Below, in pieces: positions 36,556 through 41,146 of a DNA stretch of 64,000 bases (position 1 is the first letter of the stretch; the number at the start of each line of letters is the position of its first letter). Below the pieces are notes generated by a model. The model did no database searches, had not been told where the DNA came from, and was given only the letters and a program-made list of their open reading frames with translations. Position numbers and translations under genes: made by a program. This DNA is from Methanofollis ethanolicus (GTDB lineage: Archaea > Halobacteriota > Methanomicrobia > Methanomicrobiales > Methanofollaceae): positions 2,333,470 to 2,397,469 of the forward strand of contig NZ_BCNW01000001.1 in the NCBI RefSeq assembly GCF_001571385.1, read 5' to 3'.

Positions 36556-36817
36556 GGATCCACGCCACTCTTCCATAGATTCAAGGGGCTACATCGATCT
36601 GATCATGAAGGTTTCTCCAAAGCCACGCATGCGGAGATAAGAGGAATGAACGAAAGTTCTGAGATGAACTTAAGAAGAGAAGCGGCATCAGCACCCTGCT
36701 TCATCATGGATCAGAGGGGGTAACTATCATCATCTGCCGCAATTGTGTGTACTATAATATCCTCCCCATGGAATAATGTTCTGACCGTCCCGGCCAGACC
36801 TCCGGGACACATGGCTG

Positions 36818-38362
36818 ATGACGACCATGGCATCATTCAACATCGCCGGAAAACTCCGGGAACTGGAGAAAGATGTCGGCACTCTCTCGCCGATGCAGAA
36901 GATCCTCCTCGGCACCGACGGCTCGGTGACCACTCTTCTGGAAAACGCGCTTGATTGCGAGGTGACGGTGCAGACGCTCTCGCAGGAGGTGGTGCCTGCC
37001 GACGACCGCGTGGCGGTGTCCCTCGGTATCCGTGCAGGCGAAGCGGTCAACCACCGGATCGTGACCCTGAACGAGAAGGAGAGCGGGAAGGCACTTCTGT
37101 ACGCGGCGTCCGACACCCCGCTCTCCCGCCTCGACCCTTCGTTCAAGGACGACCTGATGCGGGCCGACATCCCGATCGGGCGGATCATGCAGAAGCACCG
37201 GATCGAGGCGCGGCGCGAACTCAGCGACGTGCGGGTGTGCCGGGCCGGCACCGGCATCAGCGGCGTCTTCGGCATCTTCCGCCACGAACCCCTCCTCTCC
37301 CGCAGGTATCGGATCATCACCCGCGGGGAACCCCTGATCGCCATCAGGGAAACTTTCCCGTACTGCAACTTCACCGACGAGGCCAGGGTGATCGTGGAGG
37401 CCCCGGCACGGGTCCATATGACCCTCATCGACATGAACGGGAGTTCGGGGCGGGTCGACGGCGGGATAGGCCTCTCTGTCGAGGACCCGGCCGTCGTCGT
37501 CGAGGCGAAAAAGAGCGACAGACTCACGGTGAGAGGAGAGGGGGAGAGTGCCGAGAGGGTGAAAAAGACCGCAGAGAAAGTCCTTGCCGCCCTCGGCGTC
37601 CGGGGAGGTGCCGAGATCACCCTCCACCGCACCTATCCCGGACACATCGGCCTCGGCAGCGGCACCCAGATCGCCCTCGCCACCGCCCGCGCCCTCTCCG
37701 CCCTGTACCGGCCCATGGAGGTCAGGGAGATCGCGGCGATCGCCGGGAGAGGCGGGACGTCGGGGATCGGGACCGCGGCATTCGAGTCGGGCGGTTTCAT
37801 CCTGGACGGCGGGCACAGTTTCGGCCCTTCGGGAGCGAAGTCCGACTTCAGGCCGTCGGCGGCCTCGCACGGCGTGAGGCCCGCCCCCGTACTCTTCAGG
37901 CACCCTGTCCCCGAGGACTGGCAGGTCCTCCTCGCCACTCCCGCCATTCCGAAGGGCGAAAACGGGAAGGCCGAGGTCGATATCTTCAGGCAGTACTGCC
38001 CGGTACCCATCGGCGACGTGCAGGCGCTCTGCCACACGGTGCTGATGCAGATGCTCCCCGGCATCGTCGAAAAAGACCTCGACCTCTTCGGGACGGCGGT
38101 GAACGCGATCCAGGGCCTCGGGTTCAAACGTGTCGAACACAGCCTCCAGCCCCCTCTCATCCACGACCTCGTCGCCGCACTCAGGGCAACCGACGCCGCA
38201 GGAGTCGGGCTGAGTTCCTTCGGCCCGACTGTCTACGCGATCGGCGACACAGGCATGCAGGACGCCCTCGGGGCCGCGGAGGAAGCGATGGCGGAGACCG
38301 GCGGGACGGCGTTCCTCACCCGCGCACGGAACCGCGGGGCGGACGTCAGGGCATCCCCCTGA
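36818..38362 (+). CDS. mptG: Fused chorismate lyase-like / beta-RFAP synthase (methanopterin biosynthesis)
   Basis: 514 residues, about 190 longer than a usual RFAP synthase. Residues 1-185 read as a chorismate-lyase (UbiC/DUF98-like) domain: LSPMQKILLGTDGSVTTLLE near 24, a central VVSLGIRAGEAVNHRIVTL-like strand, and IGRIMQKHRIEARRELSDV near 120, all as in that family. Residues 190-510 are a GHMP-kinase-like RFAP synthase: EAPARVHMTLIDMNGSSGRVDGGIG and the loop GHIGLGSGTQIALATARAL near 285, then GRGGTSGIGTAAFESGGFI. RFAP synthase condenses an aromatic acid with phosphoribosyl pyrophosphate; in methanogens 4-hydroxybenzoate, the product of chorismate lyase, is a reported substrate. Two ATGs (36818, 36827) are possible starts. 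Confidence 0.88.
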   Translation: MTTMASFNIAGKLRELEKDVGTLSPMQKILLGTDGSVTTLLENALDCEVTVQTLSQEVVPADDRVAVSLGIRAGEAVNHRIVTLNEKESGKALLYAASDTPLSRLDPSFKDDLMRADIPIGRIMQKHRIEARRELSDVRVCRAGTGISGVFGIFRHEPLLSRRYRIITRGEPLIAIRETFPYCNFTDEARVIVEAPARVHMTLIDMNGSSGRVDGGIGLSVEDPAVVVEAKKSDRLTVRGEGESAERVKKTAEKVLAALGVRGGAEITLHRTYPGHIGLGSGTQIALATARALSALYRPMEVREIAAIAGRGGTSGIGTAAFESGGFILDGGHSFGPSGAKSDFRPSAASHGVRPAPVLFRHPVPEDWQVLLATPAIPKGENGKAEVDIFRQYCPVPIGDVQALCHTVLMQMLPGIVEKDLDLFGTAVNAIQGLGFKRVEHSLQPPLIHDLVAALRATDAAGVGLSSFGPTVYAIGDTGMQDALGAAEEAMAETGGTAFLTRARNRGADVRASP

Positions 38363-38418
38363 ATCCCTGGACAAATATACACAGATATAGATATGCCGCC
38401 CATAGTAGAGTGAGTACC

Positions 38419-38955
38419 ATGCCGGCAAAAAAGACTCTTACCCTTGGAATCACCGTCAACCTGGACAACTACGAGAACCTCCGCCTGGAAGTGAGCGGGG
38501 AGGTGGGATCACAGGAGGATGCCGACGACCTCGCGGGCTTCCTCGACGCCACCCTCGCCCGTCTCGGCAGGGGGGACGAGGCGACGGCCGAACGTGTGGA
38601 CGCCTACCGCCGCAGGGTCTTCTCGATGAAACCCGTCGAAGCGCCCCTGCCCCCGCAGCCCGAAGAAGGCCAGACCGTCCTGGTCCCGATCGAGGCAGAG
38701 GAAGCGGAGGCCCCGGAGGCCGTGCCCGAACCGGTGCCAGAACCCGTCGCCGCACCGGAACCGGAACCAGTACCAGAACCTGTCGCCGCACCGGAACCAG
38801 CACCAAAGCCCGAAAAGCCGCAGGCCCCGGCGGCGGCCGCCGCCTGTGAAGAGTGCGGCGAGCCCGTCACGAAGACCCAGAAACAGATGAGCAACCTCTT
38901 CCTGAACAAGACGCTCTGCAAGGCCTGTATGGACCGCCTGACTCACCACCAGTGA
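38419..38955 (+). CDS. Pro/Glu-repeat protein with zinc-ribbon-like tail, unknown
   Basis: 178 residues in three parts. Residues 1-75 form an alpha/beta domain (KTLTLGITVNLDNYENLRLEVSGEV, split here over 4-28). Residues 85-135 are a low-complexity linker built on tandem units of PEPVPEPVAAP encoded by a near-identical 36-base DNA repeat. The tail has CEECGEPVT and CKACMDR, a four-Cys zinc ribbon (about 143-172). No family is recognised. It sits alone between RFAP synthase and Orc1/Cdc6 and is followed at 60 bases by the latter; a common transcript is possible. Confidence 0.75.
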   Translation: MPAKKTLTLGITVNLDNYENLRLEVSGEVGSQEDADDLAGFLDATLARLGRGDEATAERVDAYRRRVFSMKPVEAPLPPQPEEGQTVLVPIEAEEAEAPEAVPEPVPEPVAAPEPEPVPEPVAAPEPAPKPEKPQAPAAAAACEECGEPVTKTQKQMSNLFLNKTLCKACMDRLTHHQ

Positions 38956-40139: not shown

Positions 40140-40156
40140 GCGATCGATTGGCAAGT

Positions 40157-40164
40157 CTTATCTA
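40157..40164 (+). promoter_or_regulatory. Putative TATA box and ribosome site of mch
   Basis: CTTATCTA lies 40-odd bases before the mch ATG, giving a short leader. GGTGAT at 40190-40195, six bases before the ATG at 40202, decides for that start against a longer frame. Confidence 0.45.
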
Positions 40165-40201
40165 TTCTCTCCGCGTTGTTTATGTGAATGGTGATATTTC
40201 C

Positions 40202-41146
40202 ATGCTGAGCGTGAATGAACAGGCCCTTGACATTTTCAACGACATTTTCGAATATCCCGATGATTACAACGCGGCGTCCCATGAACTTGACAACGGCGCC
40301 AGGATCGTCGATGCAGGCGTCTCCGTTCCCGGCGGATACCAGGCCGGCCGGACCTTCACCGAGATCTGCATGGGCGGCCTCGCCGACGTGAACCTCACGA
40401 TGGGACAGATCAAGGGGATCCCGATGCCCTTCATCGAGGTCTCCACCGACTTCCCCTCGGTCTCCTGCCTCGGCGCCCAGAAGGCCGGCTGGACGATCAA
40501 GGTCGGCAACTACTTCGCGATGGGTTCAGGCCCGGCCCGCGCCCTCTCCCTCAAGCCGAAGCACACCTATGAGGTCATCGGATACGAGGACGAGTGCGAC
40601 TCAGCCGTGATCTGCCTGGAGAGCGACCACCTCCCGAACGGCGAGGTCATGCAGACGATCGCCGACGCGTGCAAGGTGGACGTCGCCAACACCTGCGCCA
40701 TCGTCGCCCCCACCTCCTCCATCGTCGGCTCGGTTCAGGTCGCCGGCCGTTGCGTGGAGACCGCGGTCTACAAGCTGAACGAACTCGGCTTCGACACCAG
40801 GAAGATCGTCGCCGGTTTCGGCACCGCCCCGGTCCCGCCGGTCCGCGGCGCCAAGCGTGCGATGGGTGTCACGAACGACGCCACCATCTACCACGGCCAG
40901 ATCGCCCTCACCATGAATGCCCCGGAGATCAAGGACTACCTCGGGAAGATCCCGTCCAATACGTCCCAGGGCTACGGCAAGCCCTTCAACGAGATCTTCA
41001 AGGAGGCGGGCTACGACTTCTACAAGATCGACACGTCGCTCTTCTCCCCGGCAGACGTTGTCATCAACGAGATCTCCGAGGGTGTCGTCTACCATGTCGG
41101 CGAGGTCAACCCCGACGTGACCCTGCAGTCCTTCGGTCTCCAGTAA
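40202..41146 (+). CDS. mch: Methenyltetrahydromethanopterin cyclohydrolase
   Basis: 314 residues, complete. Third enzyme of CO2 reduction to methane: it interconverts N5-formyl- and N5,N10-methenyl-tetrahydromethanopterin. Recognised by LSVNEQALDIFNDIF at the start, AGRTFTEICMGGLADVNLT near 57, VSTDFPSVSCLGAQKAGW near 82, NYFAMGSGPARAL near 105, and TNDATIYHGQIALTM near 225. Codon use is strongly biased to C-ending and preferred codons, in line with high expression. No other methanogenesis genes are adjacent. Confidence 0.98.
   Translation: MLSVNEQALDIFNDIFEYPDDYNAASHELDNGARIVDAGVSVPGGYQAGRTFTEICMGGLADVNLTMGQIKGIPMPFIEVSTDFPSVSCLGAQKAGWTIKVGNYFAMGSGPARALSLKPKHTYEVIGYEDECDSAVICLESDHLPNGEVMQTIADACKVDVANTCAIVAPTSSIVGSVQVAGRCVETAVYKLNELGFDTRKIVAGFGTAPVPPVRGAKRAMGVTNDATIYHGQIALTMNAPEIKDYLGKIPSNTSQGYGKPFNEIFKEAGYDFYKIDTSLFSPADVVINEISEGVVYHVGEVNPDVTLQSFGLQ

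Follow-up and report, generated by a model that had tools for sequence, protein, structure and literature searches.

A chorismate lyase-like domain fused to beta-RFAP synthase in Methanofollis ethanolicus and related methanogens

The fusion gene and its surroundings

The stretch of Methanofollis ethanolicus DNA analysed here (the window, 64,000 nucleotides in all) carries on its plus strand, at 36818..38362, a gene that joins a chorismate-lyase-like domain to a beta-RFAP synthase in a single product of 514 aa. The frame runs from the ATG at 36818 to a stop at 38362 and is open for another 11 codons upstream, the choice of start codon being putative. Just upstream and divergent, on the minus strand at 36685..36738, lies a C/D-box sRNA-like element with the boxes C ATGATGA, D' CTGA, C' ATGATGA and D CTGA. 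Its best Rfam matches (snoPyro_CD with 37.4 bits and sR1 with 32.8) are both below gathering, and the stretch is present in 10/10 genomes of the same genus tested, including G087. The D' guide could form 12 paired bases with the organism's own 23S rRNA near position 1947, which suggests that the element may be a methylation guide. Downstream on the plus strand, a gene at 38419-38955 encodes a 178-aa product with a Pro/Glu-rich middle, for which no Pfam family was found at E 0.1, and mch, for methenyl-tetrahydromethanopterin cyclohydrolase, follows about 2 kb from the fusion gene (40148-41146, plus strand). The position of mch relative to the fusion is kept in G085, and G087 keeps mch and the other neighbours without the fusion.

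Family searches divide the product in two. Pfam PF01947 (Chorismate pyruvate-lyase Rv2949c-like) matches residues 31-182 with E 6.8e-23 and 81.7 bits (cut-off 22), followed C-terminally by GHMP_N and then GHMP_C, and NCBIfam NF040726 (BetaRFA-P_synth) matches residues 192-509 with 387.8 bits (cut-off 328); TIGR00144 likewise scores 364.1 bits for the frame against a cut-off of 113.5. Sequence matches in the PDB split the protein at the same boundary, with residues 23-188 resembling 2nwi (AF1396; 3.7e-34) and residues 190-489 resembling ForT-PRPP 6yqq (8.4e-34). Together with the predicted model, these matches place the lyase fold at residues 23-188 (36884..37381), and NCBIfam, PDB and structure matches place the beta-RFAP synthase domain, a member of the GHMP superfamily, at residues 192-509 (37391..38344), both on the plus strand like the features within the gene that are given below. 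By DSSP of the model, the last strand of the lyase (171-181) and the first of the synthase (190-203) are connected by a short linker, residues 182-189 (37361..37384). The first-pass annotation had proposed a chorismate-lyase-like N-terminal half followed by a beta-RFAP synthase, and domain searches on each half bear out both calls: PF01947 scores above cut-off and the predicted model has the chorismate-lyase fold, and NF040726 and TIGR00144 both exceed their cut-offs.

Two other affiliations of the N-terminal half were rejected because the scores fall under the cut-offs, namely the UTRA family (PF07702; 19.2 bits against 23.8 for the full length, 22.1 for the lyase half alone) and the cyanobacterial chorismate lyase equivalog (NF037993; 30.6 against 175 bits). 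In the source genome, a profile search returns one PF01947 match, the fusion itself, and two TIGR00144 matches, the second being a weak paralog with 72.1 bits, below cut-off. The homologue of G085, at the corresponding position of its locus, is 85% identical to the fusion, and the nearest of the 51 named relatives aligned are from Methanogenium sp. (81 and 80%).

Within the lyase half, Arg80 (37055..37057) and Glu178 (37349..37351) are the putative counterparts of UbiC Arg76 and Glu155 (R77 and E156 with Met counted), which we take to be active-site residues, Arg76 presumably contacting the carboxylate of the product. Both are invariant in 48/48 distinct fused and 25/25 distinct single lyase sequences, drawn from 51 and 28 ORFs, respectively, and again across two further alignments of 52 and 40 rows; T33, D34, G35, S36, A116, D117, P119, I120 and G121 are likewise unvarying in the former set. 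The correspondence of Arg80 with UbiC comes from one alignment of an AF1396-like protein with E. coli UbiC, in which the positions of R80 and E178 fall on R77 and E156. A profile comparison of the lyase half with E. coli UbiC gives no significant match (Prob 1.7); it puts a Glu opposite E178, but V82 rather than R80 opposite the Arg, two residues off. The Arg/Glu residues to which the first-pass annotation had tied the lyase call are thus putatively kept, the match of the Arg to UbiC being indirect and contradicted by one alignment.

A full-length model built on the window protein and 51 named relatives reaches a pLDDT of 91.0 and a pTM of 0.88, and its synthase half superposes on ForT (VIA-align; 8ap0 with Z 38.8; 6yqq with Z 36.5 over 311 aligned residues at 2.2 A). 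Folded alone (pLDDT 92.3), the lyase half matches AF1396 (2nwi_F; Z 22.0, 159 aligned, 1.7 A, 46% identity) and UbiC with bound product (1g81; Z 14.5, 147 aligned, 2.6 A), and the claim that this half has the chorismate-lyase fold holds at the level of the predicted structure. UTRA effector domains reach Z values of up to 16.9 (4zsi with 16.8), and Foldseek places them above UbiC (E 1e-9 versus 2.7e-6 for 1g81). Since these ligand-binding domains have the same fold, with scores equal to or above those of UbiC, the fold alone is no proof of a lyase. The predicted fold is compatible with a lyase and also with a binding domain, and a lyase is favoured by the score of the family match and by the residues that never vary.

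In the synthase half, the PRPP-binding residues known from ForT are present as R198, H276, T283, R311 and S315. By alignment with ForT, Arg198 (37409..37411) corresponds to Arg19, which contacts PRPP, the pyrophosphate loop from H276 to T283 (37643..37666) to His99 to Thr106, and R311-GG-T314-S315 (37748..37762) to Arg135, Thr138 and Ser139 of the 5'-phosphate pocket. The accessible text of PMC8183095 reports ForT Arg19, Thr106 and Arg135 as essential for PRPP binding. Among 107 distinct fused sequences, R311, T314, S315 and H276 are kept in all, R198 and R212 in 106 (one gap each), the D205 position holds 103 Asp, 3 Glu and 1 gap, and the T283 position 89 Thr and 18 Ser. ForT Ser142 is replaced by Gly318 in the window protein, with Gly at this position in 107/107 fused and 29/29 single sequences. 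The segment D205...R212 (37430..37453) was matched to D19 and R26 in the benzoate pocket of MTH0830 by position and spacing, not by sequence alignment. Asp19 and Arg26 are required for activity of MTH0830, and R26 was proposed to bind pABA, with which the Mth RFAP synthase was assayed (accessible text of PMC6787355). Because the Mth enzyme uses pABA in this assay, the synthase half does not by itself force the use of 4-hydroxybenzoate.

Distribution and history of the fusion

The fusion is not peculiar to one genome. PF01947 occurs in 158/232 genomes of Methanomicrobiales and in 102/135 of those of high quality. Among the PF01947 matches listed for the order, which cover 149 genomes (9 further genomes have matches outside this set), 144/150 rows lie in frames of at least 431 aa and 6 in shorter ones. 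Frame length by itself is no proof of fusion, and both domains were therefore checked in 30 fetched, lyase-matched loci of the order (L004-L033): 29 of them carry both in one frame, the exception, L022, being cut by a contig end. Four of the six short frames are at contig ends or frameshifted, another is that of L022, and the last, in G189, is a true remnant. Beyond the order, a phylum sample holds PF01947 in 208/392 genomes. Frames as long as the fusion turn up there in families f12 and f22 as well, where both domains share one frame in 19/19 loci (18 genomes, L140 and L155 representing one gene of G300). In a scan of named sequences, all 80 loci kept out of 511 confirmed stretches span both halves; they belong to Methanotrichaceae, Methanomicrobiales and Ca. 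Methanolliviera, with a few labelled only Methanosarcinales or Euryarchaeota archaeon. The recurrence of the same two-domain architecture in so many loci rules out a mis-assembly or a chance read-through. As to how common the fusion is, a question that the first-pass annotation had raised, it is widespread in the order and beyond but not universal, PF01947 being absent from 33/135 high-quality genomes of the order.

Unfused relatives of the two halves are found as well. Families f7, f8, f9, f10 and further ones in the phylum sample have stand-alone lyase frames of about 157-236 aa, and in the six f7 genomes read, a synthase gene is directly followed by a lyase gene on the same strand, unfused and in the order opposite to that of the fusion.

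In the synthase tree, the fused proteins of Methanomicrobiales and Methanotrichaceae form one clade (100/99). A single clade of all 32 fused rows was not recovered, yet it is not rejected either (p-AU 0.219). In the lyase tree, whose resolution is poor, the fused proteins are not gathered in one clade, and a single origin is again not rejected (p-AU 0.115). One ancient fusion, later transferred between lineages, may explain these trees most simply. Genus g9 has stand-alone synthases in 13/25 genomes (loci L034-L046) and lacks PF01947 in 25/25. These single synthases do not nest inside the fused clade of Methanomicrobiales, but as the AU test does not reject such a grouping (p 0.181), the genus might have inherited a fusion and then dropped its lyase half.

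A GHMP paralog and Methanomicrobiales without the fusion

Of the 74 genomes of the order that lack PF01947, 14 have a synthase above the TIGR00144 cut-off (13 from genus g9 and G003, with a partial gene), and most others have a weak GHMP paralog only. At high quality, 33 genomes are without PF01947, 6 with a canonical synthase and 27 without one; G087, G120, G024 and G157 are examples of these 27/135 genomes without the lyase domain and a canonical RFAP synthase. The case of G087, from the same genus as the window, is one of clean loss: homology to the window ends at 38372 and restarts at 36741, such that 36742..38371 (plus strand) is missing with the flanks kept, and a stretch (L084) of 12001 bases with 0 N retains nothing of the gene. 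In G189, a single contig, a 175-aa lyase remnant ends in IEKQLS, against IRETFP in the window, and the stretch read after it holds no synthase match. That G189 retains a working stand-alone lyase was rejected, since the putative catalytic Glu is gone.

MptA (TIGR00294) was found in 20/20 genomes tested, 18 of which belong to the 27, and Mch in 20/20 genomes tested, 13 of which lack the fusion and 11 of which are among the 27. From their gene content, the species behind these 27 genomes appear to synthesize tetrahydromethanopterin and to employ it, although no RFAP synthase can be recognised in them. In the accessible portions of the literature, we found no usable statement on the pABA or 4-hydroxybenzoate needs of such species.

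A 360-aa GHMP paralog (L003:1435-2517, minus strand; G000:C1:2173467-2174546), used as a query, finds a match in 221/232 genomes of the order and in 133/135 of high quality, counts that take any match, some being to the fusion or to another synthase only. Outside the order, the paralog is present at 62-67% identity in 5/80 genomes tested, all from f22; 56 others of the 80 give weak matches only, to synthases. The paralog keeps counterparts of ForT Arg19 and MTH0830 D19 and has no counterpart of R26 in 48/48 sequences, nor of T138 and the downstream D and H, and, lacking these residues, it is better not named an RFAP synthase. A gene for a DUF2148 (Fe-S-type) protein precedes it on the same strand in 45/51 loci (duplicates of one genome included). 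It is the sole remaining family member in 26/27 of the genomes without lyase and canonical synthase, G080 having none; this genome, 99% complete, is without the fusion, the canonical synthase and the paralog and has MptA and Mch. It is conceivable, but in our estimation unlikely, that the paralog, encoded together with the DUF2148 Fe-S-type protein, is a second aryl-C-riboside enzyme that would act on another acid or precursor than the fusion does and would render the fusion dispensable. If true, such a second aryl-ribose route would account for the fusion having been cleanly lost, repeatedly, from genomes still making the pterin half.

A candidate bifunctional enzyme of methanopterin synthesis

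The analysis shows the identity of the domains, a predicted fold, conserved residues and a conserved architecture, and the fusion protein is very probably a bifunctional enzyme that carries out the first two steps in making the aryl-ribose half of tetrahydromethanopterin. Its N-terminal domain would convert chorismate into 4-hydroxybenzoate and pyruvate, and the C-terminal GHMP-fold domain would combine 4-hydroxybenzoate with PRPP to yield beta-RFH-P, that is 4-(beta-D-ribofuranosyl)phenol 5'-phosphate, along with CO2 and PPi. The phenol would be aminated later through a succinyl-aminobenzene, to be cleaved by PurB. From sequence and model we infer both activities, the use of 4-hydroxybenzoate over pABA and any benefit of proximity, and we hypothesize that the product may be handed over between the two sites, as the first-pass annotation had supposed.

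It is possible that the N-terminal domain is instead a catalytically dead, UTRA-like sensor of 4-hydroxybenzoate or chorismate that regulates the synthase, with the aromatic acid coming from elsewhere. The UTRA regulator domains, which share the fold with high scores, and the sub-threshold Pfam match (19.2 bits versus 23.8) would fit such a role. However, PF01947 lies about 60 bits over its cut-off where UTRA fails, the putative catalytic Arg and Glu never vary, whether the protein is fused or single, and the profile search of the organism's own genome returned no second PF01947 match that could supply the acid, which together make a sensor improbable. We deem it slightly more improbable still that the synthase half mainly uses pABA in vivo, the 4-hydroxybenzoate from the lyase half being a minor or unrelated pool. 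While the Mth RFAP synthase does use pABA and its proposed pABA-binding R26 corresponds to R212 of the fusion (PMC6787355, accessible text), fusion and gene adjacency tie the lyase to this very synthase. Moreover, a paper citing White 2011 has PurB cleaving a succinyl-aminobenzene intermediate (accessible text of PMC3261824), which fits the phenol route and is what this route requires.

The fusion, together with the adjacent unfused pairs of f7, supports 4-hydroxybenzoate as the likely substrate in vivo, and to this extent the preference for 4-hydroxybenzoate over 4-aminobenzoate voiced in the first-pass annotation stands. The idea is not new, however, White having reportedly described 4-hydroxybenzoate as the precursor in 2011, and since PF01947 is absent from those 33/135 high-quality genomes, 4-hydroxybenzoate made by the fusion cannot serve the whole order as its sole source. 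A further scenario retains both activities, and hence is compatible with the bifunctional enzyme: the fusion might serve only co-expression and a fixed stoichiometry, with no channelling or allostery and with split enzymes being equally good. Split genes in many relatives, seen as stand-alone frames in f7, f8, f9 and others, and the opposite gene order of the f7 pair speak for this, whereas the short linker and the pTM of 0.88 hint, as a weak point from a predicted model, at a fixed arrangement of the halves. We regard the chances of this scenario as evenly balanced.

The bifunctional enzyme proposed here would combine features of several known systems. Its C-terminal half passes the equivalog cut-off of MptG (MJ1427, MTH0830, AF2089; NF040726) and shares the benzoate-pocket Asp/Arg and the PRPP residues with it, but MTH0830 is a synthase alone (accessible text of PMC6787355), whereas the fusion has a lyase domain in front. 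Its N-terminal half resembles the PF01947 lyases (Rv2949c-like; AF1396, 2nwi) in sequence (46% identity), in structure (Z 22.0) and in the shared invariant residues, these lyases being stand-alone proteins of about 157-236 aa in f7, f8, f9 and other families. E. coli UbiC has the same fold as the lyase half (Z 14.5, product bound) and matching motifs (TPLGRYL and TELF versus DIPIGRIM and RETF in the fusion), but it differs in its identity of about 20%, its Pfam family and its non-significant profile match. The C-nucleoside synthase ForT has the fold and the PRPP site of the synthase half at about 30% identity; its substrate is 4-amino-1H-pyrazole-3,5-dicarboxylate and it has no lyase domain (accessible text of PMC8183095). 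Archaeal fusions such as aroE-aroK of Methanomicrobiales likewise join adjacent steps of aromatic metabolism within this order, and the main text of the survey that describes them (PMC11237513) does not mention a fusion of lyase and RFAP synthase; nor does the accessible text of a Methanomicrobiales genome paper (PMC2686161). Titles and opening lines of abstracts in the open literature gave us no description of it, though the architecture could well be on record in domain databases.

Methanogens that have repeatedly lost the fusion gene while retaining MptA and Mch reveal a gap, which either a precursor from outside or another enzyme for the aryl-ribose unit would have to fill. For the archaeal PF01947 proteins, whose solved member AF1396 was deposited as a hypothetical protein, the fusion suggests a pathway in which they may act. 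With the fusion, a single gene would connect chorismate straight to the branch leading to methanopterin, such that the choice between 4-hydroxybenzoate and pABA becomes testable with a single protein.
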